Shown in pieces: positions 1,348 through 36,110 of a stretch of 37,033 bases of DNA. Source of the DNA: Clavulina sp. PMI_390 (Eukaryota; Basidiomycota; Agaricomycetes; Cantharellales; Hydnaceae); the NCBI GenBank assembly GCA_015039315.1, contig WIDE01000058.1, positions 114,079-151,111 on the forward strand, written 5' to 3'. A program made the position numbers and the translations under genes. The notes beneath the pieces are model-generated. The model was not told where the DNA came from, did no database searches, and saw only the letters and a program-made list of their open reading frames with translations. The first letter of the stretch is position 1. Each line of letters starts with the position of its first letter.

Positions 1348-3215
1348 CTACTTCACCAGTCTGCCAAACACACATGGCCTGGGCGGTGACGCGGGACTTT
1401 CCTCCTGGCTGCTCAGTTCCGTTGCCGTCAACAGCGTTGTAGTGTTCTCCCTTTCTCTTTCTCTTGTTCCAATTCGGCAATTATGTGGCGTTGTGGTCAT
1501 CTCCATCGAGGAAGGTAAAGGACTGGACAGACGGTGCTCCTCGGCAAGACGAGATCTAAGGCCCGTACGAGAATGTAGACTGGGAACAAGTGGAGATCAG
1601 ATCACTACGCCCACGCCACGCCAGGGTCCAAATTTACGTACTGTGCCAGTGCAGAGACTGTGTAGACACCTCCCAAAGCCTGATAAAGAGATCGTCAAGT
1701 CAGAGAGCTATCAATGGATGATCATTCTTAAACGATGCACACGCACCACCCCAGCCGCCAAAACGGTCTGACCGCCTCCAACGATATTCTAGGGAGGAAA
1801 GAATGAGGATTGAGCCTGAGCGATGTTAATTTTGAAATCGAGTCTTACTGCGGCGAGGATCCCAATGGCTACAACACTGGTTACCACTCCAGATGCTACT
1901 CCGTATAGCATAAGCCAGTTAATCATACGATCTGTTCTACGTATGACACTCCATCAGCGCGAGGAGCTTCTCGGAGTTGGAATAAGAAGTAGACTCACTG
2001 GAGAAATCCAGTACGTTTCCTCCGCAATTCAATAACAACGCCAAATGCAAGAGCTAGATCTACGGCCGACTGTGACAAGAATCGAATTCCATTAGTGTCG
2101 ACTGAATTCCCGGATCCCCACGCAAGGAGTCGTACCGAGATAGAAGCAATGCTGACGACCGTCGAGAAAGTGATTGGTGATCCAGTGTAGCCGTTCTTAT
2201 TTGCAACTGTTGAGGAATATATCAACAACTGAGGTGTGTCAGTGAAGAGAGAAGGCCTACCAAGTCCTACAACTTTAGAGGGTTCCTCGTTCAGACCGTC
2301 ATGGTTTGTCAGATAATTGAAGACCACGCACCAGCGCCAGCCAGGATGAGTGGAGGCTGGGAAGAGGAGGGTCTCAGCGATGAAATACGTGTTACAATAA
2401 GGAAAGGGTCTCACAAGGGCGATAATATAAATCCAGCGCTGAGCCACTGGAAATGCGTTGTTGTCAGGCGCTGTTTCTTCAAGAAGACCGGTACCAATCA
2501 CTTACACGCCCATAACCTGAAGGTAAAGAAACACTGGACCACAAAAGATGTCATAACCTAGCGGAGAATCAGGCTAGAAGATCAGTTTATCGTGGTATAG
2601 AGCAAACCCACCAGATGGGTGGCCCAGTAAGCTGACTCCCTGGGGTGACACAAGGAGAGTAAGATACTGGGGTGGACGAGTGAAAGGAGGGTGTGCACCA
2701 TTTGAGATGTTTGTTGAATCGATATTCGATGGCTATGAGGCCGTCATATATATCACAGGTTGTTATGAGTCTAGTCCGTACAATGCGTCAGTGATCGATG
2801 ATGGAGATGGATGGGGATATCACCGAGAGCATACGTTTCCATTAACTGCGCAAACCTGCCAAGCCAGTCGTGCGTGAGCAAAGTGGAAACACATAAGCAG
2901 CCGCAGTGGCACTACTCGCACCAGAGAAAGGCGACCTGTAATTGTGCCAAGTGAGCTTTGGCGATTCGTCTAAAAATCATTGAAGGCGATTTGGGCCATA
3001 CCATAGCTTTCACTACCCAATGGTCACCAGGAAACCTGTCCCAGTAGAGCTTTGCTTGGACAGTGATCACCCCAAAAAGGCTACAATAAAACGTATGATG
3101 AACCTGGACCATCTTGATGATTCCACTGGGGGCGTGCTCACATCGACGTCAAGATGTTGCCAATGAAGAAGCTACCAGATACTGGGGAGGTAGGGGGTGG
3201 TATAGTTGTGGACAT
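1348..3215 (-). CDS. DUF6534-type seven-helix membrane protein (gene A), short tail
   Basis: Exons (minus): 3215-3142, 3080-3002, 2935-2922, 2855-2835, 2770-2699, 2639-2612, 2557-2506, 2446-2415, 2356-2332, 2272-2261, 2206-2136, 2069-1999, 1936-1849, 1788-1747, 1679-1642, 1579-1348; 316 aa. All introns are GT-AG and every phase matches the paralogues. Recognisable segments are SFFIGNILTSI/LFGVITVQAKLYW (first helix), VAFLWFAQLMET, the TDRMINWLMLYGVASGVV signature and ALGGVYTVSALAQ before the LHSRTGLRS stretch. It is the most diverged member: the first exon is 12 nt longer, the loop exon 5 is the shortest (72 nt), and the tail is only about 77 residues. The tail lacks the PPRFNPTELF-like ending that most copies have. 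Open throughout, so probably functional, but the tail may be degenerate. Biochemical function unknown. Confidence 0.8.
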
Positions 3216-4031
3216 TGTCGACTCGCCAGGAGTAGCACCAGAAACCTCTCCTCTCGAGAGTAAAGGGGTGGGTGGAGGTTGAAACAACTCGGGGCGTGAT
3301 CATTTGTCACGAGGACCGCCTAGACAAACGACCTACGGCATGGTTGCAAATGGGACAATTTTTCGGCTCGGAGATTAATAGAGACCTGAAGAGCAAGGGG
3401 GATTGGCAGCCAAAGGTTCGTTAGCAATGAAATTCTCGCCAGTGCTATCGCTCCATTCCTCAGCTGGACGTTCTCGATGTTGGAGATGTCTTGCTGAGCG
3501 GCGGCCGAGCCTCCGAACTGAGTGTTCACGATGACTCACGGAGATTTAAAAAATGTTTCAGGTCCCATTCATTCGCATTGTATTTGGCCGCAGCGGGGAA
3601 TGTGCTTGTGGAGATACAACTCTGAATGAGATTTGCACCCGCTTGCTTCTCCTGATGTTCGGGATTCTGGGGACATGACACGCCAGCGCGTGTTGTGGAT
3701 CAGATCCCATTATGACGGCAGCTCAAATAGTCATTGGATAAGGGAGCAATGGAAGTGATGGCCGGCAGATACCCAAAATGACGGGATCAACTGTGATAGT
3801 AAGGAGATTATGCTGAACCATGCTGGACGTCAGTTGGGATTTCTCTCTATCTATGATTTAATACAAGGTGCCAGGGGTGTTACAGATAAAAAAAAAACGA
3901 CGACACAGGGAATATCAATAGGGAATAAAGACAAGTAGAAGGAGCGAGTGGGCTGGATCAGCACTAGGGTTTCAATAGTCAAGGCACCTGCATAGAAGAG
4001 AGGATACGTCAATAATCGATGGTGGTGATTG
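3216..4031. other. Intergenic region upstream of gene A
   Basis: This holds the presumed promoter of gene A (read leftwards) and the 3' flank of gene B. I see no splice-supported gene. A 69-codon minus-strand frame at 3320-3529 is the only open stretch of note and has no recognisable family. A short poly-A run lies near 3889. Confidence 0.45.
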
Positions 4032-6276
4032 TCACAAACAGGCAGGAAGAACACGAACTTGATGAACTTCTTGAGAGTTTAGCCTCAATTTTGAAAGCTG
4101 AAAGGGTACTTCCTCCGCGTCAGGGCTAGGAGGTAAGAAACTGTTGGTTTCAGACCGTTGTCTCCCTTTGGCAAACAACTCTGTTGGGCTGAATCTTGGC
4201 GGTAAAGGATTGCAGACTTTGGTGCTGACTTGTAATGATGGTAGGGGTCGCGAAGGTACGGAAGGATCTGCTGGTCCTTCAGGATTGCGGTGGAGTGTGG
4301 AAATTCGGAGCTGGTGGTTGCGATGGGAACCGGAGCCCGACGGAGACCTGGCGTCGGCGTCGATAGTCGTTTCAATGGTTCGGGTGACTCGAACTATGTC
4401 CATGGAACTCTGGAAATCGTTCATCTCAATACCAGGGTCGGTCATGGACACGGGATATGAGGTGGATGGGTGGTTGTTTGACGGTAAGATGGTACGTTTT
4501 TCTTGGGGCTGAGAAACATGGTGTGTGGAGATTATCTCCGACGATGGAGTGACGCCCTTATCGAGGTGTCGAGGAAGCTCAGCCGCAAGTCGGGATCGAA
4601 GTCGTGTACGAGAGTGCAAGCTAAGAATGTAAGTGGGGGAACTTGTGAGAGAAAGTAGCAGGATCGCCAAATTTATTACGCACTGTGCGAGAGCAGACAC
4701 TATATATGACGCTCCAAAGATCTATCAAATCAAAATGGCAGGTGAATAAGCTTATGTGAGGTCAATAGCACAGAAATTTGACGTACTCCACCAACACCCA
4801 CGGTGTGACGATCATCTCCGATGATGTACTAGAGAAAGCACATGATTAGAGCGATCCAAGCAACGAAGAGTAGGCTATTCGAATATGAATACTGAACGCA
4901 CGAATATCAACATAGTGATTGCGAAAATACTTGTCATAACACCTGATGCAACTCCGTATAGTGTTACCCAGTTGACAACACGGTCTGTTCTATGGAGCAA
5001 TTTGGCGTAAGGTTCAATCCATTAGGAGCCAGGACATGGAGGTTATGAACTCACTGAAGGAAACCTGTGTGATGTTTTCTCATCGTAATGGTCACGCCGA
5101 ATGCAATTGCCAAATCGACCACAACCTTATAGAAGCAAGTTATTATGTGAATCCACACGTTGCTGAAGCAAGCTCACTGTTGACGACACAAGGGTGATGA
5201 GTTCAGCGAAAGGCCGGGGTGACGTGGGGACTCTGCTTCCTATCAGAAAATTGGTCCTACACACATCTTCACGAAGACGTCAATAAGATAAGACGGTAGA
5301 TATGAGGTGGTCTTACCAAATCCCAAAGCTGTGGAGAGATTTGGAGGTGATTCAGCTTGCTGGAACTGTGTCCTTGCAGTGTTGGTGCGATGTGTCAACT
5401 CACCAGCATTGAATAGGATCATGGAGCTCTGAGATGGAAAGAGTAGGTTTGAGACGCTAATAAACCTTGTGGAGACGAGACAAAACTCACAATGACTGCG
5501 GTATATGCTCGCCGCCGCGACACTACGAATCGCGTTAGCTCGAGTGTGGTCTCGGTCAGGAGAAGTTTTGGCTTACATATCCATAGCCTGTACGCGTAGA
5601 AGCATTCCACAATAATGGCTGCTGCAAGCTGGATGGACGTCGTAAGGATCGGAAATGTCACAAGTGTCTAAATATAGTCACCAGGTGAGTTGCCCAATAT
5701 TGCGTTTGCCTAGAGCACGGGGGGCACAGGTCAGATCACTTCGATGTGGCGAGCAACTGTACAATTACCATTGTGGTCTTAGATTTGTTCGATTCGAGGC
5801 GTCAGGGGAACGAGACCAATTGTGTTCGATGATTTGCCTGTAAAGATCCTGGGTCGCAATCACTCTGAGAGATACGAGTTATGAGTAATGGAAGGTGCAA
5901 GAAGGCACAAACTCACACTTGCAACAGTTGTAGAACCCTACGAGGCACGAGGTGAGTCTAAGAATGGCCAACTTTGAGAATTTTCATACCATAAGAGTGC
6001 CACCTTGGTGTGCGGAGAAGAGAGCGGTATGAGGTTAGTGTTGCAACACTGGTGCTTTGAACCATGCTACCCTACCATCACTTTCACGGCTCGTGAATCG
6101 TTCGGAAACCTGGCGAAATATAGCTTTGTTTGGACAGTAATGCCACCAAACAGGCTAGGATGCGATAGATTGAGACATTGGTCGTGCCGACGACCATGAC
6201 AGCGATCAGCTCACATCGACGAAAAGATATTTCCAACGAACAGACTGCTGAATACAGGTTCATGAGGCGCAGCCAT
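4032..6276 (-). CDS. DUF6534-type seven-helix membrane protein (gene B), longest copy
   Basis: Exons (minus): 6276-6215, 6154-6076, 6003-5990, 5937-5917, 5864-5769, 5709-5682, 5628-5577, 5522-5491, 5428-5404, 5328-5317, 5266-5178, 5125-5055, 4989-4902, 4828-4787, 4721-4684, 4620-4032; 445 aa. Helical segments include SSLFVGNIFSSI/LFGGITVQTKLYF, VECFYAYRLW, DLAIAFGVTITMRKHHTGFLQ and VNWVTLYGVASGVMTSIFA. The tail begins LHSRTRLRSRL, is rich in Ser/Thr/Pro, and contains PPRFSPTELFAKG. About 40 further residues follow that motif, more than in any paralogue. Exon 5 (96 nt) and exon 11 (89 nt) are also longer, by whole codons. For exon 11 the acceptor at 5268-5267 must be used: the more pyrimidine-rich-looking one just downstream gives an in-frame stop. 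Function unknown. Confidence 0.83.
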
Positions 6277-8684
6277 TCGAAGGGATTCGTCGACTCCAGT
6301 CGAGCCCAGCTCTGGCTCTGTAAGCTCAAGCAGCGACGGGATGTAGATAGTTGGCACCAGACTCTGACGTTGGACGGCAAGTGACTGAAAGGAACATCCC
6401 GTGCCAAGGGTTTTGTCAAAAGAGTTGCCGCATGTGCGGTCAGGGTAGAGAGCGCATATATCATATGAGTCACGGCGTCCCGTTACTGGCATCAAGTCCC
6501 TGCGCCGAAAAGCGGGGGAAAACCTCGAGGAAAACAGTTCCGCGAGTAAAAACCCACTCTTCAGCTTTGTCTCTGTCGTTCTAGCCCACTTGCACTCGTT
6601 CTATCTAACAGAAACGGACAGAAAAGCGGGGTCACCCCCAAAAAACTCTATTCAAACGCCGATTCCCACAATCAACAATACAAACTGTGACGGCCACTTG
6701 ATGTCCGACATTCATTGCGAGGCAGTCAAAATCCAGCAAAGCAGCTGGATAGAGAAAGTGGAGGGGCATAGATGTGATTCAACCGGCATTACGGTCCCCG
6801 ATCATGAATCTCGGACAAAATAATGCCGATAAGTGGAAGCACGAGTCTCCCTCCATCTGCATTTCCATCTGCCGATGCGGGTAGCTGTCCAGGTATAAGC
6901 GCCATTCTCCGTCTAGAAGCTTAAGGGGAGCAATGCTACCCTATTCATTGGCAAGTGACCTCCGTTTCCCTCGGACTGGAGGGGCTAGAGCATTTAGACC
7001 GGACCAACTTCCAACGTTGATCCGCCCCGCTCGAAGAGAATAAGGTTGTAGTCTGACTGAATAGTCGAGGACAAGAATCCCCTAGCGCCAGAGTCGACCT
7101 CCTCCACTGAGTCAACTTCTCGCCGAGCTCCAGCTATTCTCAACATAAGATTCAATATGACTTGGCGCAGGTGGTCTCGTTGACCGTCACATCGTGGATC
7201 CCTCTCTTCCTCACTAGGATTGGGATCGCGAGCGGTGCAGTGGTGGGGCTCGTATGAATTAGGCACGGACGGCGGGTGGGCGACTGTGGCTCATCATCAG
7301 ATGGTGAATGAAGGTTCTCCAGAAAAATCTGAAGATAATACTGTGCGTAACTCTGAGAGGCACGATGATGGGCATGCAATAAATCACAGTACTCACAAGG
7401 ATGGAAAGATGGCTGGGCCTTTTCGAGAGGCCGATCTATAGCTGGCTCCATCAATAGTACGCCAAGTGCTTGTGGGGTGGCTCATCGATGTGGTCCAGGA
7501 GCTGATGCAACCTGGAATATCAATCATTTCACTATACTCTCAATTATAAGTAATGATTCTGTCAATCGCCTGATGGATAGAAGAAACTGGGCATTGCTGT
7601 AAGCCTCACTACCATATGCTCTGCGAAGCGCACCAGTGATCGTTATCGATAATTAGCTATTGTTTTCTCTAAGATAGATTAGCCCAGATGAGCCACGCCG
7701 AGTCCGAGGTGAGATCGATGCGAGGGGTCGAATCGGGGGCTTTTCTCCTTAGAGGCCGAGAGACAAATTCTTTCTATTCATCCCTAAGAATGCATCATAG
7801 ACCATGATATTGCAAATGCCACCCTCAATTCTGGCAGGTTGATGTTGGGTTGGATATGATCGTTCAGTTACTTGGCACAAGCACATGAAGGGAAGCATGT
7901 GCACTGATGCTGCCAAAGAACAGAGACTCTGTGCGGGGTCCCGTCAGATCCCAACTACCACTTAGAAATAAACAATGTGAGCTCCTACAACGTGGACCCC
8001 GTGATGGACGACTAACTAGACGGTCGATATGAGCTGAAAGACTAGACGAGCACCGTAAACATGTTGTTGGATTCACTTGCTCCGCTTTCCCTCAAATGAT
8101 CATCTTCCTCCTTCGGCGGCTGAGAGGGAGATCCTCCGCGAGTAAACAGCGCCAAGCCTGAGTGAGCTAGATATGTTCTGGGAATAATGATTGACATTGA
8201 TACCAACACGTCGGGGGGTCATTATACGCCCGGCGGCGTTCAGATGATGTCTCCGCAGTTGGAGCATCTAGATTGCAGCGTGAGAGTAGGATGAGGCAAA
8301 ATCGTTGTCCAGCAAATAGTTCATAAACTGGGATATCGCTGTAGGATAGCAATGAAGTTTGGAAGGACTCATGGCTTGCACAATCGAGGAATATGATATG
8401 AGGCGGACGCCGGGCTCAATCGAGATGTGATGAAACCAAGATTTGAACCTGTGACAGACATCGTCACACGGACGGTTACGAGATCGTGTTGTGTTGGGCA
8501 TCAGGCTCAATGGCAAAGCTTGGGAAATGCCTGAGGCGACCTAGAAGCGCCACGTTCGTCCAAGAAGAAGCCCAAAAAACCTCTTTGAAGATTGCCTCAC
8601 TCTACCACAAAGACCGCTGAAGCACCGCTGCTTACAACAGCTCGAAAGCCTTTCAACCGCATATAATAGCTAAGGACCCCTACT
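6277..8684. other. 2.4-kb interval without a convincing gene
   Basis: The interval lies between the start of gene B and the F-box gene, so it contains two outward-facing promoters. The only hint of coding is on the minus strand at 6994-7454, where two overlapping open frames (100 and 90 codons) with charged, non-repetitive composition could be exons of a small or broken gene. I found no domain and no consistent splice model. No tRNA, transposon end or tandem repeat was recognised. Confidence 0.4.
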
Positions 8685-10213
8685 ATGATCAATACCATCC
8701 CCCCAGAACTCTTATCGCAGATATTCATCCATGGTGTGCCACGGATTGAGGCAGAGCCAGTGGTCCCAACCAGACCTGTGGATGAGATGGCAGCCTGGAC
8801 GGGTACTACCTCGATGTATCAATGGACCTTTTATCGCCAGACCCTGATGCTGACTTGCCGCGCTTGGCACAATGTCTGCATTCAAACTCCCCAGCTCTGG
8901 ACTTATATTGCCTGGCCTCCCACGGTCAGGGCAGACCAGTACGAATTTTTTTTTTGGCCTTGGATTACAACTAGCCTCAGGAGCTCACCTCTACCTATAG
9001 GATCTCTGCAGCACTTGGCCTCTATGCAAAACGGAGCGGCGTGCTTCCTCTCATTGTTTATGTCGACTTGCGGCTGATCCAGTCGCGGCCTCTGCATGGC
9101 GCCAGTACTTGTACTGCGCTCCAGCTTTTCAATCTCTCCGTGCTCCCTCGTATTGGCCAGCTCCGGTTCTTCTCCGCAAACACAGACAGCTCTAATAGCG
9201 TGTGGGAGAAGATCATACAAATGTTTACCGATCCGTGTTGCGTAGAACCACGCGTGCAGTCTCTCCATGGCCACGGATTCCCCTTGCTGGTCCCCCAAAG
9301 ATTCGTCTCTATGCTGGAGATGCGAACGCAGCAGCTTTCTGTCCGGCTGAAATCTGCCCTTGATCTTCTCTCGTTCGGAGAACCATTTCCCCTTCTTACA
9401 TCCCTCGATCTCCGCAACACCTCGGTCAATCCACCCCAGCTCACTCAATTGCTCGAACGATGCCCCTCCTTGAAGTCTCTCCGCGTTATGCTCGCTCAGA
9501 GAGGAGACTATTCTTGTGCATCACTGGGTCGCGCACTGAGCCAGCTTCGTTTCCTTGCCCTCTACCCCTTCCCATTTCACGGAAGCACGAACGGCCCTTT
9601 CGGCCAGTTTCCAACTCTCACTCCCTCTCCTATCCCAGGAAAGGGGTGTCAGCATATTGAAGTCTCTGTCCGCGCACTGGAAGAAGGGTGTTTCCCAAAT
9701 GTCCCTGGGGCAACTGTTCTCACTATCGTATGCAACCCCTTCCCTCCAACCAGTTTACGCCGAGGCCTTGTAGCTGCACCTGCTGCGAGCTTTGGTTGTA
9801 TCAAAGAGTTGCGCCTACATGGGTTCAGGCCCACTGCCCATGCAAGGTACTCTTTCTCCGAAACGATGATGGTCCTGGCTTCTCCCGACCTCGTACGCAT
9901 GGCGTTCCCTGGTCTATCCTATCTTACCATCCAGTACCCCCCTTGCCCTGATGAGGTCTGCCGTATTGGCGACGATTCAAGATTCCTGGCGGATCTCGCG
10001 CACAAAGAGGTGTTGAGCGCTCTCTCAAAGGTCCTTGAGGTCCTTCCTGATATCACACTTCGCGTTTGGCTCCCTTACACATTCAAGTTGGGGTTCAGGG
10101 GCTATGAGTCATGGTTGGATTCGCAGATGATGATTAGGAGATGGAGGGAGTCCCTTGTCAAAGACTTTGGCCCGAGGGTGGTGGTGCTGGACCAATGGCC
10201 TCCGGAATATTGA
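8685..10213 (+). CDS. F-box domain protein
   Basis: Two exons, 8685-8938 and 9001-10213, with a 62-nt intron (GTACGA...CTATAG), give 488 aa. The start INTIPPELLSQIF is the classic opening of agaricomycete F-box proteins. LTCRAWHNVCIQTPQLWTYI completes the F-box at about residues 1-75. After the splice comes GLYAKRSGVLPLIVYVDL, the usual 'separate residents with the same score' segment of this family. The rest is a leucine-rich solenoid-like region (FPLLTSLDLRNTSVNPPQLTQLLERCPSLKSLRV and later repeats) expected to bind a substrate. F-box proteins link substrates to SCF ubiquitin ligases through Skp1; the substrate here cannot be inferred. The two parts lie in different frames, and only the intron at 8939-9000 joins them in phase. 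The gene converges with the aminotransferase, 249 nt away. Confidence 0.88.
8939..9000 (+). other. Intron of the F-box gene
   Basis: Donor GTACGA at 8939 and acceptor TATAG ending at 9000. A run of T residues follows the donor. Using the earlier AG at 8979-8980 would put the downstream exon out of frame, so this acceptor is favoured. Confidence 0.8.
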
Positions 10214-10462: not shown

Positions 10463-13400
10463 CTAGAGGTGGGTATCGTGCTCGGCAAAGTTGAGCTCGA
10501 GACTCTTGCGGTAGCTGTGGCCGAAGTGGCGCATGCCCTGGGTGTTTGCCTTGTGTAGCACACGCTCAATGGCATCAAGACCTACACATTCATAATTTGG
10601 GGAAATTATATGGAGTCAGTAGGTGTGTGTGAAGGTATGTAGCAACTAGGAGAAGCAGATGGGTCAGACTTGCAACGCACCCTTGTCGAGAGTCTCCAAG
10701 TTGGGTCCAAATGAGATTCGGACGAAGTGATGGCAGGGTGACTCGAAGAGGTCACGACGATGGGATGGGTTAATGTCGAAGAAGATGCCAGGGACAACAA
10801 TGGTCTTCTCCTTGAGGAGTTCCTCAAAGAATGTCTATGTACGCCAGAGATTCTCAATGTTAAATGCAAGAAAGGAGATAGAGATCGACGTACCAGGCCG
10901 TTGTTAAGCGGAGGAGGCAAGCTTGAAAGGTCCAGCCAGATGTAGAACGTGGCGGCAGGGGGGGTATGCACGGGGAGGCCCATGGCCTCGAGCCGCTGCA
11001 GGACGTGGTTGCGCTTCATGTGGAAGTGCTTCTGGAGGGCGAGCTACGGGTAGAGTGTTATGTTGGCTGCAAGTTCGTATGTAACGCACAGAGGAGAAAG
11101 AGCGACAAGACAAACCTTCTCAGCCTGGACGCGCTCGGGTTTAAGGAGATCAAGCGCTGCAACCTGCAGACTATAAGTTTAAAAGTAGAATCACATTAGC
11201 GCCTCATTCCCAACGTGATCAACAAGAGAGAATCTTGCTGACACTATTAACAAAAATGACTTACGGATGCGACGCACCACCATCCAAGAATGAGCCGGAC
11301 TGCGAGAGCGCACTGATCAAGTTCTTGGGACCAACGACCCAGCAGACTCGCCAGCCAGGGAGACGGAAGTTCTTGGTGAGACCATCAATCAGCACAACGG
11401 GGTCCTCATTGACATCTACAGGATAGTCATGGCCACACGGTCAGCATTTTTAGCGATGCTCCCAGGCACAAAAGACGTGAGGGGTGGACATACCATCAAC
11501 GTATGCGGCACCGCTCAATGATTGGCCATAGTCCTCTCCCTCCTTGGGGTAGATGTACCACGAGTAGAACTCATCGAGCACCAGGGTTGTGTGGGGCCTA
11601 GAGAGCGAAACGAGCTCTTTGAGTTCCTCTCCCCTAAAATTTGAAAGACAAGTCAATAATTGTACCGTAAGTCAGTGCTCAGCAGGGGAAAGAAGGGGAG
11701 AAAGTGAAACACATACATGACAGCCTGCCCAGTGGGGTTACGAGGGTTGCTCGCTACGACGACGGAAAGACCTTGGTTGTTGATGTCGCGCTACATATCG
11801 ACATCAGAAAGTACACTCGACGATCAACACGGATCCCCTTTTGGTGTAGAGTTTATTGTGCGCACCTGAAGCTGAGCAATATCGAGCTTGTAGCCATTCT
11901 CGGCGGTCAGACGGGTAGGAATGGGCACGAGGCGCTTGAAGACCGACAAGACCTAGACGCACAGATTCACCACATTAGTTCAACACAACAAGAGGCCACC
12001 GCCCGGCTGGGACTGACCTCAGAGTATGTAGTATATTCGGGCACTTGATAACCGCAATACACATCGCCAACAACGGCGGCCACACGGCTCAACCCTGCAC
12101 GTCCACCAGGGACGATACAGACGTTCTCGAAAGTGTACTGAGATTCCTTGTCCTTGCGGTAAGTGGCATTGTACATATCCGCGACAGCACTGCGGAGGGC
12201 CTTAAGACCGGTAGTGGGCGCGTACTCATTTGCGAGAGTTTCGATATTGATGGACTGAACGCGTGGGGGCGCGTCGGGGATGTCGCCTACCTCAGGGGCA
12301 CCTTGGCCGAGGTTGGCCTAGTAGGCAATAATTCGCGAACATGAGCGTCAAAGTGAACAGGTATGAGGTCAGAAGGTGCCGAGGTGTGTGGGGGATGGCC
12401 AACACATGAGCGTGGGAAAAGAAGGGGTGGAAAATGATGGTTCGGATCCGTGCCGAGGCAAAATGGAATCGATGGCATCATTGACAGGTCCCATCGCACG
12501 TGTTGAAGCAGCACAGACGATGAGGAGGGGGAGGGGGGAAAGCGAGGTGTGGGACGTGCGGTTAAATTTAGATCGGGGCGACATGAGGAAAAAAGAACGG
12601 CCACCCAAGTGGAGCAGCAGAAGCACGAGTGGGGTATTTGCCAGTCAAGTTGGTCAAACAAACAAATGCATGTAGTGATGGTGATCGAGGCGGAACCCAG
12701 ACCCAAATCGAGGGAGGGCGTGTATATATAAAGCAAAATGAACGGTTTAACGTCATCAGGACAAAAATAGTAAGTATCATCCTCCAAACCCTAGTAGAAC
12801 GGGAAACCCAGGAGCAACGCACCCATTCTTCGTTGCCGTAGGCAAAGCCATTTGCCATGGCACGGTCGGTACAGTAGATCACACCCGTCGCACCGGGGTG
12901 GGCAACACCTGGCACGGTCTCCCTACGCGATCGCCATCGCGAATATCAAATGAAATGAGGCGATGAGATCGCCAGATAAGACGGCGACAAAGGGCACCGA
13001 GACGCACTCATCGGGGTTGACAGTCTGGGGCTCAAAGGCGGTGTTTTTGAGGTTTCTTTTGTGTCCAGGGTACGAACGGAAGATCTAGAGAGTGGGGTGA
13101 ATGTGAAGAAGCCCGAGCAACGGGAACTGCGCGAGTGTGAGCAATACCTTGTAGGCCTCGGAGTCTGCTTCAGTCAGCTCCTTCTTGATGAACTCTCCGA
13201 CGATATCGCGGAAGTGGCCAGCAGGAGTGGTTGTCATGTCTGGTTCTCTGGAAGGAGAAAAAAAGGTTGTAGGTGGTAGGGAGGAAGAGGAGGAAGAAGC
13301 GCGCAAGTGGAAGTGTGTTGTAAATGAACCGACGTCGATTGCGATATAAATACCCACTCACTGTCCGTCTTTGTCTTGGGATGGCGACTTGACAGCGACA

Positions 13401-13564: not shown

Positions 13565-13842
13565 TCAATATCGTTCTTGGCGTGTGTTCGTTGCTGGATG
13601 CGAGGGTGTGGAAGACAGGTATGAACTACACTAATTCCTGACGACATCTTATTATGCTGCCCCCTTATACGACCAGCGACCAAACGCTGCGCGGCCTCCA
13701 TCATGCAAAACGGGCGACTGCCACGATGATCGTGTTCAACGTCATCGGCAATAACACTCCAATACAAACCTGAAGGCAGCCGAATTGACTGTTATTCATT
13801 GTTATTCCCCTGAGCGTTTGGCAGTTCGCGACTGATTGTCCA
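13565..13842. promoter_or_regulatory. Divergent promoter region, aminotransferase / IPK1
   Basis: A 278-nt spacer between the start codons of two head-to-head genes. Both 5' UTRs and both core promoters must fit here, so the genes probably share a bidirectional promoter. I see no clear TATA box on either side. Confidence 0.5.
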
Positions 13843-15417
13843 ATGTCCTTTCACCACAGTACCAGCACGGGAAACCATCGGGAAACTGAGCCAATCGACC
13901 TGCGAGGCACGACTGCCGATGACTGGCGCTATGTCTCTGAGGGGGGTGCCACGATCGTCTTTGCCTATGTCGGAACTCCCCATCAGAGTCTCGATGGGAT
14001 GGTTCTTCGTCTCAGGAAGGCTCCTCTAGGTGAACTTCAGCAAATCGTCCTCCCTACTCATAGCAAGGCTACGTATAACTCCGATCACCCTCCCGCCGCA
14101 ACTGCGGAGGCGGAAGCGGCAGAAGGAGAAGAGGACGATTGGGAGCTATATGAATCCGAGCCGGACGACGCGACGATCGCGTTCCAATCATGCGTCACCT
14201 CAAAACTCGTCCCACCAGAATTTCTCCCGCGCCTTCTCCCTGCGCGCGTATCGTTATCCCTGCTCTCAGCGCTTTCCCGTGCGCCTTGCTCGGCCCGCCC
14301 CCCGGAGAGGGTGCTCAGAGATGCGATCGACACGCGCAAGAGGCGTGCTGTGCTTGCTACGGACCTCGTTGGGTTCGAAGAAATGCGATCTTCAGATTCT
14401 CAACCACGCCACTTTGCGGTTGAAATCAAGCCCAAGTGGGCATTCCTCGCGAACCCCACATACCTCTCTCCCGAGACTGTGCATGTCAAAACCAAGTACA
14501 GTCGTTTCGTCATGCACACCTATTATCGTTCCCTCTCTGGCCACGCATCTGGAGAAGATTCAATCTCCTCGACATATAACCCGCTCGATTTGTTCTCTGG
14601 AGAAAAGTCGCGTGTCGAGAAGGCTGTTGGTGCGCTGTGGGATACGTGGATTGCCGCTGANNNNNNNNNNNNNNNNNNNNNNNNNNNNNNNNNNNNNNNN
14701 NNNNNNNNNNNNNNNNNNNNNNNNNNNNNNNNNNNNNNNNNNNNNNNNNNNNNNNNNNNNNNNNNNNNNNNNNNNNNNNNNNNNNNNNNNNNNNNNNNNN
14801 NNNNNNNNNNNNNNNNNNNNNNNNNNNNNNNNNNNNNNNNNNNNNNNNNNNNNNNNNNNNNNNNNNNNNNNNNNNNNNNNNNNNNNNNNNNNNNNNNNNN
14901 NNNNNNNNNNNNNNNNNNNNNNNNNNNNNNNNNNNNNNNNNNNNNNNNNNNNNNNNNNNNNNNNNNNNNNNNNNNNNNNNNNNNNNNNNNNNNNNNNNNN
15001 NNNNNNNNNNNNNNNNNNNNNNNNNNNNNNNNNNNNNNNNNNNNNNNNNNNNNNNNNNNNNNNNNNNNNNNNNNNNNNNNNNNNNNNNNNNNNNNNNNNN
15101 NNNNNNNNNNNNNNNNNNNNNNNNNNNNNNNNNNNNNNNNNNNNNNNNNNNNNNNNNNNNNNNNNNNNNNNNNNNNNNNNNNNNNNNNNNNNNNNNNNNN
15201 NNNNNNNNNNNNNNNNNNNNNNNNNNNNNNNNNNNNNNNNNNNNNNNNNNNNNNNNNNNNNNNNNNNNNNNNNNNNNNNNNNNNNNNNNNNNNNNNNNNN
15301 ATTGACCTCGATCCGAAGTCCGTTGCGCGGTTAGAGAAGTGGCGAGTGCTCGATAAGGATATTGCGCAGGCGTACGCTGCGCATCTCCGTGACTCAGGCT
15401 CGTCAGATAGTGGGTAA
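13843..15417 (+). CDS. IPK1: Inositol-pentakisphosphate 2-kinase, interrupted by assembly gap
   Basis: An open frame of 272 residues runs from ATG 13843 to the gap at 14661. After the gap, 39 residues ending at TAA 15415-15417 follow in the same nominal frame. WRYVSEGGATIVFAYVG near the N-terminus matches the glycine-rich nucleotide-binding entry of the family, followed by MVLRLRK. EIKPKWAFL at residues 194-202 is the hallmark EIKPK motif of IP5 2-kinases. RFVMHTYYRS and YNPLDLFSG follow as in fungal members, and the C-terminal IDLDPKSVARLEKWRVLDKDIAQAY fits the end of the domain. The enzyme phosphorylates inositol pentakisphosphate at the 2-position to give phytate (IP6). Introns inside the gap cannot be excluded. 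Its 3' end has been copied twice downstream (near 18960 and 21840) along with the DUF6534-type genes. Confidence 0.85.
   Translation: MSFHHSTSTGNHRETEPIDLRGTTADDWRYVSEGGATIVFAYVGTPHQSLDGMVLRLRKAPLGELQQIVLPTHSKATYNSDHPPAATAEAEAAEGEEDDWELYESEPDDATIAFQSCVTSKLVPPEFLPRLLPARVSLSLLSALSRAPCSARPPERVLRDAIDTRKRRAVLATDLVGFEEMRSSDSQPRHFAVEIKPKWAFLANPTYLSPETVHVKTKYSRFVMHTYYRSLSGHASGEDSISSTYNPLDLFSGEKSRVEKAVGALWDTWIAAXXXXXXXXXXXXXXXXXXXXXXXXXXXXXXXXXXXXXXXXXXXXXXXXXXXXXXXXXXXXXXXXXXXXXXXXXXXXXXXXXXXXXXXXXXXXXXXXXXXXXXXXXXXXXXXXXXXXXXXXXXXXXXXXXXXXXXXXXXXXXXXXXXXXXXXXXXXXXXXXXXXXXXXXXXXXXXXXXXXXXXXXXXXXXXXXXXXXXXXXXXXXXXXXXXXXXXIDLDPKSVARLEKWRVLDKDIAQAYAAHLRDSGSSDSG
14661..15300. other. Assembly gap (640 N)
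   Basis: A run of 640 undetermined bases inside IPK1. The true length may differ. Reading frames that appear to cross it are meaningless inside it. Confidence 0.99.
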
Positions 15418-16224
15418 CAAGATGTTGATTCAAGCTGGAGGGCTTTGATTACCAAATGTAGGAGTCATTGGATTTGGCATTCCAGTATTAGTATGGGATT
15501 TGGGGGTATGCAGCCATATGCAATGTCTGAAATATGGCGATTATCATCAATCACTGTCTCTCATAGTGATGAATATACCATGGGTATAAACCAGGGCCAC
15601 GTGGTCTTCATGCCAACACACATTTCCATTCGCTGAGTTCGTGGCTCTCCCCGCGGTCTCAGGGCGCCGAGTCATTCAATGAGGATACACGCATTAAGAT
15701 CATCCTTTTCTCATCAACTCATGAGGCTCCAGCATCGTCACACCCCAATTCCATCGCATTGAGTGTCTCTAGGGAGTTGACAACCAAAGATCTGCGCTGT
15801 GTGGTGGTCAAATAGATCCGCCTATTCTTATGACGGCATTCCATCTCGGATGACCGTGGAATTATGATATTGACTCAGTTTCCAGTGGTCGTTCATTTCA
15901 ACCAACCTCGATCCGTAACCTCAACGCATTTGATATGCCCATGCGGCACTGGGGTTTTATTAGGTCTGGACTGATTTACGAATGGATTCCGTCACTGATG
16001 CCTGGACCAGTGAGTGCGGCTGCATATAGAGATCACCTCCACAGTCTGGAGAACTCGAGTTTGTGGATGGTTTGTTAGTCTAGATATCCACACTTTCGCG
16101 CACGAGTTCGCATGATCAAGTCATCCCTGATGTACTGGGCACACTCCAATCGCCCCCAGCGTAGATACAACAAGAAGGTTATGATTCAGAATCACAGTAG
16201 CCTGGCCTCGCCGACAAGCGGGAT

Positions 16225-18954: not shown

Positions 18955-19032
18955 CACCTGCGGCGTATCTCCGTGACTCAAGCAATTCAGTCAGTGGATA
19001 ACAAGATGTTGTTTCAAGCTAGAGGGCTTTAT
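18955..19032 (+). pseudogene. IPK1 3'-end relic 1
   Basis: GCGTATCTCCGTGACTCA, then a stretch matching the IPK1 stop-codon region, then ACAAGATGTTG and CAAGCT(A/G)GAGGGCTTT, align with 15380-15445. Only the last dozen or so codons of IPK1 plus some 3' UTR were copied. It is not expressed as a kinase. Confidence 0.7.
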
Positions 19033-19806: not shown

Positions 19807-21800
19807 ATGGTGCTATCACCTGGTCCCGTACTTGGTAGCTTCTTCATTGGGAACATCCTGACATCGATGCGAGTACTATGCTCGTATTGTATTGAATATG
19901 ATGCTCGAAACTTATACGGAGTGTATTCCAGTCTGTTTGGGGCCATTACCCTGCAAACGAAGCTGTACTTCATCAGGTTTCCTAGTGATTCACGCGTCCT
20001 GAAGGCCATGGTACGCTTCAAGAACAGACTTTCATAGTGCCCGAGGCGTTGTTGAGGTTGTTTTAAACTCCCTGCAGGTTGCATTCCTTTGGTATGCTTG
20101 GTGTCATGCCCGAGTGTCCTTCGATCTTGCTTATCATCAAATTCTAGGCTCGCTCAGCTCGTCGAAGTGTACGTTTCTATAGGAGGAGCCGTAATAACCA
20201 ACCTCATTATCTTCCATAGAGTGGTCTCTTCTCACAAATTATATGCACAAACGATCCGATATCACCAAGACTTCTCAACAAAACCGCTTCCTCCCAGTTC
20301 GACATGGTGTGCATGACTGTTGGCGTTCGCAGCTCGATTTGCCAGTGTTATTAACGAGCCCTCATTTTTAGGGAGAAAGATTATTGGTATAGCCATACCG
20401 TGAGCGCGTTCGGCGATCACAGCTGTCTCCCTAACAACCCGAATCCCCCAATAGATTGCGTCATCATTCATCGTGCAATTTTTCTATACCTATAGATTGT
20501 GGTCTCGTAAGTGCTGGCTAACCCTGAGCGGGAAAGAGGCATCTAATCCGCTACCGTAGTATCACGGTATCGAATTTATATTGGGATGATTGTGGGTAAT
20601 GTTGTTGACTGCATAATAATGTGACGATTGATCGAATTCCTTAAGGCCACTCTTATTCTGGTCAACTTTGGTGAGTACTCTCGGACCTGCCCAAATCATG
20701 TGCGAAGCCTAACTGCTTGATGAGATACTAATCGGTTCCATCCATAGCTGTAGCAGTTAGTGAGTCAATTGGGATACAACCTTTCATTTCGCATGGTTTC
20801 TATACCTCAGCTTCATAGGTGATAACTTGGACAACTACCTCGGTCGACCTCGCAAAGCCGCACATGACTTGGAAAAAGTCATTTTAATTACTATATGCTC
20901 AGTACAGTTCTTCCTTGGTTTTGTGCCCCTGGGATCATCTGCCAAATTTTCGCTCCCTACTTCAACAGGCGGCAATAGATTTGGCCCTTGCGTTCGGTGT
21001 TGTTATCATCCTGCGAAAGCGACGAACTGGCTTTGTTCAGTGAGTTTCATATAACAACAGGTTGCGACCAATTGATATTCGAGAATGGCTGAGACCCTCA
21101 TTAGGACAGACCGCATTATCAATTGGATTATGCTATACGGGGTAGCATCGGGAGTATTGACCAGCATTTTCGCTCTTGCAATACTCGTGATGGTAAGCTT
21201 CACATTGCTCACTTCAGGAAGATATCGTAGCCTCCAAACGTCTTCTTCGTTCACCAACACCGTCCCAGAACTTGGCAGGGCATTTCCACAATGCGGTGGG
21301 AGTAGCGATGGTGAGCAGAACTGTGCCCGTGTATCAGATCGGTCACCTAAATATATACCTCATGAGGGCAGTTTTTCGGAGGAGTATATATCGCTTCTGC
21401 ACTGGCGCAGTAAGTGACTCACTATTTCAGATTTGTTGATTCTTCTGATACCATGCTGCTTGCTGGCAGCCTCCATTCCCGAGCGGGTCTTCGATCGGAA
21501 CTCTCGAGGGAACACCGGCTGCCCAGTGGAGGAGGCTCCTGGCTTTCTTCGACTAATATAAGAGTCTCATCACCTAATTCTCCGTCGAGCCGAAAGACCA
21601 CAGAGCTCATACCCACGTCGAGCTCTGTATTACTGGCTTCGCTTTATCCCGCATGCCCAATTGAATCAAGAACGGATGGTTTGCAGGTCATCATTGAACC
21701 TACAGATGCTACGCCAAGCGACGTGACAACTTTTGAAGTGGAAACAGAACCCTCAGCTAGCCAGCATCCTCTGGAGACCGCCTATAACCAATCCACCTAG
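19807..21800 (+). CDS. DUF6534-type seven-helix membrane protein (gene D), truncated tail
   Basis: Exons: 19807-19868, 19932-20010, 20078-20091, 20148-20168, 20220-20306, 20372-20399, 20455-20506, 20560-20591, 20646-20670, 20748-20759, 20819-20901, 20969-21039, 21105-21192, 21269-21310, 21372-21409, 21470-21800; 354 aa. The membrane part is complete, from GSFFIGNILTSI to FFGGVYIASALA. The tail stops about 60 residues short of C and E, losing the PPRFNPTELF-like end. The cause is visible: homology to E ends near 21788 and an IPK1 relic follows, so the stop codon comes from foreign sequence at a duplication junction. The first intron has a GC donor (GCGAGT at 19869) where C has GTGAGT. GC-AG introns are spliced in fungi, so this does not prove loss of function. 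Candidate recent pseudogene or a tail-less isoform. Confidence 0.78.
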
Positions 21801-21839: not shown

Positions 21840-21990
21840 CATGGCAATGGACCTCGATCCCAAGTCGCTGTGGTGTGTGCTGGATAGGGACACCGCGCGT
21901 GAGTACACGGCGCATCTCTCGTGACTCAAGCTAGCGAACAGTGGACGAGAAGATTTTAGTTCTAATTACCAAGGATGAGAGGTTTGAATC
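21840..21990 (+). pseudogene. IPK1 3'-end relic 2
   Basis: The frame reads MDLDPKSLWCVLDRDTARE and then YTAHLS before a stop. It matches IDLDPKSV...RVLDKDIAQAYAAHL at the IPK1 C-terminus, with five codons deleted after DPKS. Sequence just upstream (21800-21840) may also come from IPK1, but the matching part of the gene is hidden in the gap. It is a truncated, non-functional copy. Confidence 0.78.
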
Positions 21991-22922: not shown

Positions 22923-25115
22923 ATGACACTATCCCCTGGCCACGTTCTCGGTAGCTTCTTCATTGGGAACACCCTGACATCGATGTCAGTAGCGTGCTCA
23001 TAGATTCAATATGATGCTCGAACCTTACTTGGAGTGTTTGATAGTCTATTTGGAGCTATCACCCTGCAAACCAGGCTGTACTTCACCAGGTTTCCCAGCG
23101 ACTCGCGCATACTGAAGTTTATGGTACGCTTCAAGGGCCTGGCTTTCATAGTCCCCAATGTGGTGCTGAGTTTGCTTTAAAATCCCTACAGGTAGCTTTC
23201 CTCTGGTACGCCTAGTTTCGCGGTTGAATTGCCTCCGGTATCGCTTATCGTTGAGTTGCTAGGCTCGCGCAGCTCCTCGAAATGTACGTTCCTTTGGACG
23301 GAGCTGTGATGACTACTCTCATCGTCTGCAATAGGATGATCTCGTCTCACAAGTTATACGGGCAAACGACCCATTCTCACCAAGCTTCCTCAGCCACGTC
23401 GCCTCCTCGTAGCCCGACATGGTGTGCATGCTTATTGGTGTTTCACAGCTCTTTGGCCATTAACGAGCTTTCAACCGTTTAGGGAGAAGGATTATTGGTA
23501 CACGCACACCGTGAGTACATTAAGGAATCACAAATAACCCTTCGATAACCCATATTCTCCAACAGATTTTATCATCATTCATTGTTCAGTCTTTCTTTGC
23601 CTATAGACTATGGTCCTGTAAGCGCTAGCCACTTCTGATAACCCAAGTCATCTAATCGACTAACGTAGTATCACGGTATCGAATTTACATTGGAATGATC
23701 GTGGGTGACCATCCCTAGTCGCATGATGATGTTCGTGACTGACTAAATGCTTCAAGGTTGCCCTCATTGTGGTAAACTTCGGTGAGTATTATAGAAGCCG
23801 CTCATATTGTGTGCGAAGCCCTAATTGACTATGAGATACTACCTCGTTGTATCCATAGCGGTAGCCCTAAGTGAGTTAATTGAGATCTAGCCTTTCACTT
23901 CGTATGGATTTCTTTACCTCGATTTCAAGGTGACAATCTAGATGACTACCTCGGCCGACCCCCTGAAGCTGCGCATGATTTGGACAAAGTCATTATAATC
24001 ACTACATGCTCGGTACAGTTCTCTCTTGGGCTTTTGCACCTGTTACCGCGTTAATTTGGTATTGCCTGTTCCAACAGGCTGTGATAGACTTAGCCGTTGC
24101 ATTTGGCGTTGTTCTCATACTGCGAAAACAACGCACTGGGTTCGTTCAGTGAGTTCCGCACAAAACGCCGATCTTTTCCTACGAATCAATCATCGAGAAT
24201 AGCTGATGCTCCTGTTAGGACAGACCGCATTGTCAATTGGATTATACTCTATGGGGTGGCTTCAGGGGTGCTAACTAGCATTTTCGCTCTCGTGATCCTT
24301 GTGTTGGTAAGTGTCACATTTTCTGCTTCTGCAAGTTTTCTTGATCGCTGAGAGTCTTCTTTGCTTATCGCACCACCGTTCTAGAACCTGGTGGGAGAGG
24401 CTAACAAAGCCATAGGAGTGGCGATGGTAAGCTCTTCCCTCCCTCCTTGCATGGATGAGGTTGGCTGAATGCATGTCTTATGCGAGCAGTCCTTCGGAGC
24501 AGTATACATCGCTTCTGCACTCGCACAGTGAGTGGCTCACTATTTTCGCTCTGTTAATATCTCTGATATCAAGCGGGTTGCTCCGCCGCTGGCAGCCTCC
24601 ATTCTCGCGCAGGTCTCCGATTGGAACTCTCGGGAGAATGTCGCCTACCTACTAGAGGCCCCTGGATTTCTTCAACTAAAATCAGCCTCCCACCACCTAA
24701 TTCTCCGTCGAGCCGAAGGAGCTCTGAGCTCATGCCCACGCCGAGCCCTGAGCTGCTAGCTTCGCAGCATTCTTCCTACCCAACTGGCGATGAAGCGGAT
24801 GGTGTGCAGGTCATTATTGACTCTGGCTATACTATGCTGAGCGAGGTGGCAATTGTTGGGGTGAAAACGAGTTCCTCGGCTCGCCAGCATGCTCCTAACT
24901 CCACTTATGACGAGCTAGAGGTTTCTAGTCTGTCTCACGATCGTCTTACCCCTAATGCATCCATGACTCCAGGTTCACCTCTAGAGTTTACCCCAAGGCC
25001 TGTTAGCAGCGCCCTATCGTATAGAGCCCCTCCTCGCTTCAACCCGACTGAGTTGTTTGGCAAGGATGCCCCATTAGCCAGAAGAACCAACTCAATACCC
25101 CGCAATGCTAGCTAG
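22923..25115 (+). CDS. DUF6534-type seven-helix membrane protein (gene E)
   Basis: Exons: 22923-22984, 23046-23124, 23192-23205, 23263-23283, 23335-23421, 23483-23510, 23566-23617, 23669-23700, 23757-23781, 23859-23870, 23930-24012, 24078-24148, 24219-24306, 24385-24426, 24490-24527, 24596-25115; 417 aa. Approximate helices at residues 10-35, 44-65, 98-114, 118-138, 158-180, 190-218 and 220-245. The DUF6534-like block spans VIDLAVAFGVVLILRKQ, then TDRIVNWIILYGVASGVL, and ends SFGAVYIASALAHLHSR. The tail (245-417) is Ser/Pro-rich and ends PPRFNPTELFGKD plus a short basic stretch. It is the best-preserved of the C-D-E group and a suitable reference for it. Confidence 0.87.
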
Positions 25116-26478: not shown

Positions 26479-28654
26479 ATGAGGCAATCTTCTAGCCCCA
26501 TCAGCAGCGGCTTCTTCATCGGTAACATCCTGGCATCGATGTAAGTATGAGTAGCCTAAATCTGTTGCGGGTTCCTCACGCTTCCATGGGTTGCTTCCTT
26601 ATAATAGTTTATTGGGCGCTACTACGATCCAGACAAGGCTTTACTTCGCTAGGTTTCCACACGATTTACCGGCATTAAAGGCTATGGTACGCTTAGAGGA
26701 CAGTCTCTCACACCATTTGGTGGGTAGCTGATATTGGTGTTCAACTTGTTGCAGGTGGCCATACTGTGGTATGTTGTGTTGGGTCAAAATTTCCTTCATG
26801 TTCCTCATGACCAGCTTCTAGGGTGGCCCAAGTAGTTGAAGTGTACGTCCAAACATCATCAGGATGGCTGCCGCCTCTCACAATCCCTCATAGAGGAGTC
26901 TCCTCTGGAAGCATCTACAAGCAAGTCGCCGGATATCACCTTTCCTCATCGTCTTCGTCCCAGAGTAATCATGGATGGTTCGTGGTTTCACTAGTATTTT
27001 GACTCCGCCTTCTAAGCCTCTAGCATCTTAGGGACACGCAATACTGGAGATCTCATCTAGTAAGGGTGCCGGGGAAATTATCGCTATCTCTTTGGCTGAC
27101 GATCTTATTCAGGTTGTGGTCTCTACCATAGTCCAATCCTTTTTCGCGTACAGGCTGTGGTCTTGTGAGTTGTGAACCCTTTCTGTTGAAGCGAAAACAC
27201 CCCTTATACCCCACCACAGTATCACGACACCGATTTTACGTTTGTTTCATTGTAAGTATGGGTCCTCCTTTACAGATGAATCTCTATGCCTTACCCGGCA
27301 CCTCTAGGCCGCCATGATTTTGACTAACCTTGGTGAGTACAAGGCTTCCTTGTTAGTGTTTGTGCGTGTTCTCTGACAATGCCTTCTACGCCATCACAGC
27401 TATTGGGCTGGGTGAGTGTAAATATAGACCAGCCTGCTGGATTTTCTATTTACGGCAAGCTCCCGAAGATGAAAATATCACAAGTTCCCTTACTTCGTCA
27501 CCCCACTCTGGGAAAATAGTCGCCATTACCACGCTCTCGGTGCGGCTCGCGTTCTCACATCTTTTGGAAGAATTTCGCTTATTTCCTTCCGTTGTCTCGA
27601 CAGGCTGCCATCGATCTCGGCCTCGCATTCGGTGTCATCATATCGTTGCGAAGGCAACGCACAGGGTTTCTCCAGTGAGTTTGGAATGATTTGCTGAGAC
27701 TTTACCTGCGTGAAGCCTTTACTGATACCGATCCTCCCTCTTAGGATGGATCGCATTGTTAACCGGATCATTATTTATGGCATAGCGTCGGGTATGGTGA
27801 CCAGCATCTACGCTATCTTGATGCTCGTCTTCGTGAGTCCCTTTGCTTAAGTAGACAAGTATTCCGTTTCCCAGGAGTTTTATTACTAATTGCGTACGTG
27901 TTCCCGCCTTCCAGAGCTTATTTGAGTATGGTCAAGTCGTGGTTGGGGCAGGTATAGTGAGTGACTTTCTTGCTTTCCAGTGGAGGGGAACAATCAAGAT
28001 GTTCATGTAAATGGCCAGCCCTTTGCGGGGGTATACATCGCTTCTACCTTAGCACAGTGAGTATTTTACCACTTCCGATGGCTCCCTGATCTAGATTTAC
28101 TAATCTTGATCAATGGCAGGCTGCATATCCGGGCAAGTCTTCGGTCTCAACTTGTTGGGGAACACCGCCTCCCGACCGGAAAAGGCCCCTGGCTCTCATC
28201 GTTCGAGATGTCTTCTCCACCGCATGATGTTCCGGCAGGTGAGAAGGTGACTCATCCATCGTCCACTCCGTGCCGTCATGAAGCGGCTTCGGACCGTCCC
28301 TCCGTGCAAGCCGTAGTCGACACTGTTGAGGTTAGCGAATCTCAGATCCCCTCCAACACCGCTCGAGCACCGGCGGAAACCGGGATATTTGTCGGGCCAG
28401 AAACGGAAACATTGGCCCAGCGCCATCCTCACCTCTTCGGCCATGATTCGACCGAGGCTTCAACGTCATCTCCCAGCCTAGATACAACTTGTGAATCTTT
28501 CAGTTCAGGCTTGAGTCCCGCGCCTACATCGGACTTCCCTGCTATCAGGTCGGTTTGCAGGCCCCCACCTCCTAGCTTCAACCCGACGGAACTATTTGCC
28601 AGGGGAGCACAATCGTCGAAAAGAACAGGATCTATGGCCCGTAGTGCTAGCTAG
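26479..28654 (+). CDS. DUF6534-type seven-helix membrane protein (gene F)
   Basis: Exons: 26479-26540, 26608-26686, 26755-26768, 26822-26842, 26894-26977, 27032-27059, 27113-27164, 27220-27251, 27308-27332, 27400-27411, 27469-27539, 27604-27674, 27745-27832, 27915-27956, 28019-28056, 28120-28654; 417 aa. Segments include SGFFIGNILASI, VVVSTIVQSFFAYRLWS, DLGLAFGVIISLRRQ, VNRIIIYGIASGMVTSIYA and PFAGVYIASTLAQLHIR. The tail contains EHRLPTGKGPWLSS and ends PPPSFNPTELFARG. With G and H it has Met rather than Thr after the conserved Gln at the exon 12/13 splice (QMDRI against QTDRI in A-E), which marks a second clade. Exon 11 is 12 nt shorter than in C-E. Exon 5 uses a GTTCGT donor, shared with G. 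Confidence 0.86.
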
Positions 28655-33963: not shown

Positions 33964-36110
33964 ATGACACGATCCCATAGCCCTATCCCCAGTGGTTTCT
34001 TCGTTGGCAACATCCTTACGGGAATGTAAGTCCTCGGTGGCTGCTTCTTCTTCGGCGTTTTGACTCCTTCCTTGAATTCTAGCCTTTTTGGTGCAATAAC
34101 GCTGCAAACCAGATTATACTTCGCGAGATTCCCAAACGATTCGCGGTCAATCAAGGCGATGGTACGTTTGCATGATATTTCCAAAATTTACTCCTGACTT
34201 TACTCTCTTCAGGTGGTCTTTCTGTGGTACGCCTAGCTGCGCTAGCTGACTCTCCAGATCTCCTTACCTTGCTTACCGTTCAATTCTCAGGGTCGCGCAG
34301 CTGTTCGAAATGTAAGTTTGCGCAGCTCGGCTTATTTTATACCCTCTGATCATCTCCTGTAGAGGGATATCTTCTAGCATAATCTATCTCCAAACCCTCG
34401 AAAGTTATCAGGCTTCTTCGTCCACTCCACCGCTCAACAAACAACAGTGGTCTGCATCATTTATTACGTCTTGGCTCAATCTACTAAGCATCTAACCCCT
34501 CAGGGCCATCCAGTATTGGACCACTAACCTGGTGATTCCGCAAGAGAAAAATATTTCCTCCGTGACTAACTCTATTTCCCAGAGTGTTGTGTCTTTTACC
34601 GTTCAATCCTTTTTCGCGCATAGGCTATGGTCTTGTGAGTAGTCGTAGTCTAATTTCACGAGCGCAATCTCTGATGGCCCAACGTAGTGTCGCGGTATCG
34701 GATTTATGTTGGAATGATCGTGAGTCTCATTCACTCTGGGTTGGTCGTTGTGTCTCACACTCTATTCCTATTTTCAGGTTACCATGATTGTCGCTAACCT
34801 TGGTGAGCACAGCACTTTCTACGTATAATATTAATCGCATAGTTAAGGGAACTCTCCTTGGCATATCACAGCTCTAGCAATCGGTGAGGCACTAGAGAAA
34901 CCAAAGCTAGCTTCTACTCATATCAATTCCATCGTGCAGATGACAATATAAACGGTTGCCTTGCCAGATCGCCAACTTCCATACACCACTTTCAGAAGAT
35001 CATGGCGATCGTTTCGCTTTCGGTAAAGCTTGTCTTAGGTATTGCCCAGATTCTTCGTTGACCTACTTTTATCTTGATAGGCTGTGATAGACCTAGCTCT
35101 CGCTTTTGGAGTCGTCATCACGTTGCGGAAACAGCGCACAGGATTCATCCAGTTAGTCTTGCACGATCATATTGGGGTTTCTTTGGGTAATCATCTCACA
35201 GTATCGACAACCTTGCCTAGGATGGATCGAATTATCAATTGGATTATCCTATATGGAATAGCGTCTGGCGTGGTGACCAGCATTTTTGCCTTCTTTATCC
35301 TCGTGAATGTGAGAAGTATTGTTTCATCTGATTACTCTTCCGACCCTCCCTTATGCGTATTATCACTCGTCTAGACCTTGGTCGGGGACCCTCAAGTTGC
35401 AATAGGAGCAGGCATGGTGCGCCGCGTCCTTCAATTTCTCGTAACGCCATCTGAGGGTTCCCTGTGATACAAATAGCCTTTTGCAGGAATATATATCGGC
35501 TCTACACTTGCACAGTAAGTGCTACAATGTCCAAGATGCTCTACCTCTAACCAACCTTGTTATTTTGGTGTTTGTCTCTACTGCTAGCCTGCATTCTCGC
35601 GCCAGGTTGCGGAGACAATTGGCTGGTGAACACTACCTGCCCACCGGAGGAAGGCACTGGCACTCATCCATTGAGATGGTCTCTCCAATCAATGGCTCTT
35701 CATCGAACGGAAATATGACTAGTGTCATCTCCACGTCAACTCACTCGGCTTCACACCATCTCCCTGCGACAGGGGCGAACGACCGACATGTAGACGACAT
35801 GTACGCTATCCCCGAGGTTATATTTCCCACTCGAAGCCACGAAACAATCATTGAAGAAGAGACGGAATCTCTGGAAGACCACCATTCTAATACGTCTCTT
35901 CACGATGAGCTTAACGTCTCAACGTATTCCCAGAGCCTTCACACTCCAGATGGATGTCTAACCCCTGGTTCCCATCTGGCATCGCACTCGGAAACGTCTA
36001 GCGTTGCCTTAGTGCCCACCTTCTCGCCTCACTTGGATCCGACGGAACTGTTCAGCGGGTCGGCAAACCCATCCTGGGGGAGAGGTGCATTGAATTATGA
36101 TGCATGCTAG
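33964..36110 (+). CDS. DUF6534-type seven-helix membrane protein (gene H)
   Basis: Exons: 33964-34025, 34083-34161, 34213-34226, 34291-34311, 34363-34449, 34504-34531, 34583-34634, 34688-34719, 34778-34802, 34872-34883, 34940-35022, 35081-35151, 35221-35308, 35375-35416, 35477-35514, 35588-36110; 418 aa. An earlier in-frame ATG at 33952 exists, but starting at 33964 gives the 62-nt first exon shared by six paralogues and aligns MTRSHSPIPSGFF with MRQSSSPISSGFF of F. Segments include VVSFTVQSFFAHRLW, DLALAFGVVITLRKQ, INWIILYGIASGVVTSIFAFFIL and PFAGIYIGSTLAHLHSR. The tail begins EHYLPTGGRHW, and its end motif is altered to HLDPTELFSG. Intron 12 has a GTTAGT donor. Intact and of the F/G clade. 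Confidence 0.86.

Follow-up and report, generated by a model that had tools for sequence, protein, structure and literature searches.

The alpha-factor receptor Ste2 is a class D1 G-protein-coupled receptor (GPCR; PF02116), for which excerpts of PMC8942848 describe an LPLSSMWA motif with a conserved Pro in the seventh transmembrane helix (TM7), as well as a conserved residue, Gln149. Excerpts of PMC12842992 (2025) state that STE2-type receptors are exclusive to Ascomycota. Among unassigned fungal proteins with seven helices, the same excerpts describe DUF6534 as the largest cluster and, from three machine-learning predictors and AlphaFold-Multimer docking to G-alpha, propose it as a novel GPCR class, with 767 consensus predictions, all in Agaricomycotina. 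In extracts from two further articles, one DUF6534 transcript is among the genes upregulated in a Flammulina CO2 experiment (PMC12387923), and DUF6534 is among the domains of some Ganoderma (PMC8955403). Here, we describe an array of eight DUF6534 genes (A to H) in Clavulina sp. PMI_390 (assembly of 39.4 Mb). The window, i.e., the whole 37,033-nt stretch of DNA that was analyzed, comprises positions 114079-151111 of a 210,089-base contig (C256). The array is a tandem cluster of an intron-rich DUF6534 subfamily, and its products are, with little better than even confidence, GPCR-type chemoreceptors with a class D-like (Ste2-like) helix arrangement. The original prediction for this DNA held the function of the family to be undescribed, which is no longer wholly so given the class proposed in the excerpts of PMC12842992.

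The Pfam profile DUF6534 (PF20152) matches all eight translations at 32.8-43.8 bits (gathering cut-off 28.2), as had been expected of them, and is the sole Pfam family above cut-off in each; it also matches 68/68 aligned relatives. Gene models were rebuilt with an exon-chain search that scored splice sites, branch point, intron length, and open frame. This search was not blind: the plan of the original prediction served as its template, start codons were picked by eye, and because lengths were restricted to steps of three nucleotides, the equality of phases is in part imposed by the method. Exon 5 of C (84 nt, vs. 96 from the search) and exon 11 of E (83 vs. 71) were taken from deposited proteins, which are numbered P0001 onward. 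The resulting genes are as follows:

1348-3215, minus strand: gene A, 16 exons, DUF6534 protein of 316 amino acids (aa), short tail without the distal motif; exon-chain search and Pfam
4032-6276, minus strand: gene B, 16 exons, 436 aa; exon-chain search and Pfam
16371-18553, plus strand: gene C, 16 exons, 414 aa; P0003 exact
19807-21800, plus strand: gene D, 16 exons, GC donor in intron 1, 354 aa, shortened tail
22923-25115, plus strand: gene E, 16 exons, 417 aa; P0002 exact
26479-28654, plus strand: gene F, 16 exons, 417 aa; identical to P0001
30244-32433, plus strand: gene G, 16 exons, 419 aa; exon-chain search and Pfam
33964-36110, plus strand: gene H, 16 exons, 418 aa; most of the 5' core is missing from deposited P0008

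Each final model has 16 exons and one terminal stop, and the eight genes lie where they had been predicted, on a single plan. Exons 2, 3, 4, 6, 7, 8, 9, 10, 12, 13, 14, and 15 measure 79, 14, 21, 28, 52, 32, 25, 12, 71, 88, 42, and 38 nt in every gene. Exon 1 (62 nt in seven genes, 74 in A), exon 5 (72-96 nt), and exon 11 (62-83 nt) differ by multiples of three. The exon sizes given in the original prediction stand for these exons except exon 11, in which B (62 nt) falls below the claimed 71-89. Its claim that no frameshift or stop interrupts the genes is also upheld, though the tail of D terminates early and the tail exon of A is just 232 nt; the GC donor of D reads GCGAGT. In a free-length search (C to H only), the plan was the best solution for E, F, and H and the second-best for C, and the best solution for D was on plan except for exon 1 (77 nt). 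For G this search favored another frame, off plan, so the plan of G rests on the constrained search and its likeness to paralogs. Chain scores of the eight genes are 63.3-74.6, whereas 110 kb of member-free sequence from the same contig yielded a complete chain at 5/3268 ATGs, with a best score of 7.5.

The model of F is predicted to have seven helices with the N-terminus outside and the C-terminus inside, and a charge bias predicts this topology in 68/68 relatives. For two predicted models, whose alignments share 56 rows, the best solved fold match is Ste2. Because the predicted shape is nearest to the yeast mating-pheromone receptor, these proteins are probably sensors of chemical signals. 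The third transmembrane helix has Gln in 61/68 and Arg in 67/68 members, and this Gln might correspond to Gln149 of Ste2. G-alpha genes are present in the genome. Several results weigh against membership in the Ste2 family itself: no sequence similarity between Ste2 and DUF6534 proteins was detected, the STE2 profile is absent among the 25 families (of 26) listed for the 68 members, LPLSS occurs in 0/68 members and GxxxG in the first helix in 1/68, and any Pro inside TM7 is present in 10/68, so that the Ste2 motif with its conserved TM7 Pro is not seen. A genome search for STE2 found no match, and neither did its control, so this result says nothing. Other affiliations were rejected as well: a class A GPCR (DRY and NPxxY each in 0/68), a sequence relation to STE2 or STE3 (none seen among the families listed for the 68 members), and a relation by sequence to any solved structure (E 0.34 at best, to an efflux pump, taken as chance).

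Ratios of nonsynonymous to synonymous substitution (dN/dS) were calculated by the Nei-Gojobori method, separately for core and tail, in 28 gene pairs; synonymous change (dS) is saturated in 8/28 core pairs and 7/28 tail pairs. Among the three closest pairs, core values are 0.18 (C-D), 0.16 (C-E), and 0.11 (D-E), with tail values of 0.55, 0.74, and 0.69, respectively; for F-G they are 0.24 (core) and 0.30 (tail). Purifying selection on the core is clear, whereas constraint on the tail is weak. Positive selection is seen in no pair, and tail dN/dS is below 1 in every unsaturated pair. The predicted contrast between a selected core and a freer tail is thus borne out, despite the saturated pairs.

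The tails are not solely diversifying, as the original prediction had them, since a distal motif, F[NS]P[TSA]x[LM] (FNPTEL-like), is kept near the C-terminus in 12 of 16 members (15 that bear the plan, plus P0011). It is degenerate in H and lacking in A, D, and P0006. The same pattern arises in 80/32000 shuffled tails and in 0/80 other DUF6534 proteins from a Favolaschia-seeded search. In the window, it is located as follows:

4161-4205, minus strand: distal tail motif of B (LPPRFSPTELFAKGR)
18464-18508, plus strand: distal tail motif of C (APPRFNPADLFTNGA)
25026-25070, plus strand: distal tail motif of E (APPRFNPTELFGKDA)
28565-28609, plus strand: distal tail motif of F (PPPSFNPTELFARGA), within the sole predicted tail helix
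32341-32385, plus strand: distal tail motif of G (PPPRFNPTELIAKGL)
36021-36065, plus strand: degenerate distal tail motif of H (FSPHLDPTELFSGSA)

The tail helix of F (residues 395-407, at the motif) is predicted with low confidence. Among non-Clavulina DUF6534 proteins (P0015-P0094), an IEM-plus-Lys/Arg-like end is common in short tails (31/80 by a loose pattern); other subfamilies may therefore have a different tail motif.

Of the functions left open by the original prediction, a receptor is the favored one, and transport and self/non-self recognition find no support here. We regard it as rather unlikely that these seven-helix proteins have a non-receptor role, whether in small-molecule transport, in lipid handling, or as a membrane enzyme, with the expansion serving detoxification or uptake. 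No transporter or enzyme fold is near Ste2 among the top 50 fold matches listed, and the long disordered tail with its conserved short motif looks regulatory. A microbial rhodopsin or other retinal protein is rejected because, at TM7 columns 232-250, Lys is never one of the three most frequent residues.

Pairwise alignments of the C, D, and E units, which take in introns and upstream DNA, span 2586-2956 columns at 68.9-70.5% DNA identity; the original statement that introns and tails are strongly diverged does not hold for introns everywhere. D ceases to resemble C and E at ∼21772, shortly before its early stop and the second of two scraps of an inositol-pentakisphosphate 2-kinase gene:

13789-15417, plus strand: inositol-pentakisphosphate 2-kinase gene (PF06090, 165 bits on 13789-14658)
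18960-19093, plus strand: copied inositol kinase 3' end between C and D, 74.5% DNA identity to 15376-15520
21847-21945, plus strand: second kinase 3' scrap, directly after the shortened tail of D, 47% protein identity, one stop

The kinase 3' end thus recurs after C and after D, and the duplicated unit therefore runs from this 3' end through one DUF6534 gene. The kinase gene itself contains an assembly gap (640 N at 14661-15300). The window also has an F-box-like and leucine-rich repeat gene at 8670-10213, slightly below the Pfam cut-offs (24.1/24.3 and 26.6/27.0 bits), and, on the minus strand at 10606-12317, a gene in which a stretch of aminotransferase class I/II scores 19.8 bits (cut-off 19.7).

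The GC donor, shortened tail, and trailing kinase scrap of D, together with the short tail of A and the deposited models of A, D, and H that depart from the plan, could indicate partly decaying duplicates of low function, with D and A becoming pseudogenes. We judge this improbable, as 8/8 frames are open through 16 exons and the core of D retains a dN/dS of 0.18 against C and 0.11 against E. Least probable are receptors for self/non-self or mating recognition, with individual identity determined by the many diverged copies: the tandem array, diverging tails, and fold nearest a pheromone receptor would suit them, but divergence is greatest in the inner tail rather than the outer loops, as judged from charge topology, no unsaturated pair reaches a tail dN/dS of 1, and STE3 receptors for mating are already present in the genome.

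In the favored reading, each gene encodes a seven-helix protein of the plasma membrane, predicted to have an external N-terminus and to end in a long, disordered tail, rich in Ser/Thr/Pro, on the inner side. A ligand would bind the helical bundle from the outside, and the resulting change of shape would engage a G-alpha subunit within, while the tail, through its conserved distal motif, may dock regulators or scaffolds. Copies most likely multiply by unequal crossing-over of a ∼3 kb unit carrying the inositol kinase scrap; selection holds the core, and the tail drifts.

The eight genes belong to a larger and dispersed subfamily in which this plan recurs. A plan-only scan covered the fetched sequences outside the window, including eight other DUF6534 loci (L001-L008), and located seven further plan-bearing members on four contigs (three on C256, one each on C247 and C191, and two on C267). 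The twelve constant exon lengths are kept in 6/7 of these; in the C191 member, exon 6 is 34 nt in the rebuilt model vs. 28 in the deposited P0012. The chain was found in 0/8 of the other DUF6534 loci (∼3.2 kb each, so a gene may be cut), and L002 has one unbroken stretch of 130 codons where the plan has several introns. The plan therefore marks the subfamily, and we rejected it as a general DUF6534 trait. A tree of 21 rows unites the 15 Clavulina proteins (support 100/100) and, among them, C-D-E (100/100), F-G-H (97/91), and C to H (91/87); the placement of A and B among dispersed members is not settled. The homology searches each scored the ∼8000 candidates sharing most words, and we do not claim a lack of close non-Clavulina relatives. 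A second cluster of the same subfamily lies on the minus strand ∼43 kb past the window (C256:194437-210089; L025, L026), with three complete members, one near 202-203 kb, and one running off the contig end; the latter two regions (202-203 kb, and from 208.5 kb on) gave tblastn matches and no complete chain in the plan scan.

Deposited proteins give an independent check of the plan. The splice of F is identical to deposited P0001 (417 aa, 100% identity), and P0001, P0002 (E), and P0003 (C) map exactly, with 16 exons on plan, as do P0004 and P0005 (window's contig, 194-201 kb), P0006 (C247), and P0010 (C267). Other models depart from it: P0009 maps with 17 exons (tail split), P0012 with 15 (exons 3 and 4 merged across a retained intron), and P0007, the deposited D, with 15 (intron 1 read through). 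P0011 is unmapped, its locus being only partly fetched. The deposited models of D and H are mis-spliced, A is present only as a 218-aa partial (P0013), and the 15 proteins from the first two homology searches include neither B nor G. The fixed plan corrects or completes the models of A, D, and H, and its 12- and 14-nt exons make it a demanding benchmark for gene prediction.

To the extent covered by the literature searches, the new elements are the exon plan with its limits, the unit of duplication, the distal tail motif, and the fold match to Ste2; in the open-licence papers searched, no mention was found of DUF6534 having a Ste2-like fold. The fold match allows receptor function to be put forward for DUF6534 as a specific, testable hypothesis; according to the excerpts of PMC12842992, Ste2-type receptors are lacking from this phylum. 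Tentatively, DUF6534 could even be the basidiomycete branch of the class D (Ste2-type) fold, a large chemoreceptor repertoire to which the Clavulina subfamily adds a docking-motif tail and tandem expansion; if true, a fold thought confined to Ascomycota would extend beyond it.

Compared with described systems, the array shares with the DUF6534 family its profile match and invariant residues, whereas the 16-exon plan and the long tail with a distal FNPTEL-like motif were seen here in the Clavulina members. The STE3 pheromone receptors of Basidiomycota are likewise seven-helix fungal receptors, but their profile (PF02076) has no match among the families listed for the 68 DUF6534 members. The putative GPCR class in the excerpts of PMC12842992 belongs to the same Pfam family as the array, and Ste2, the best solved fold match of two predicted models, has the seven helices and N-out/C-in topology that are predicted for the array.
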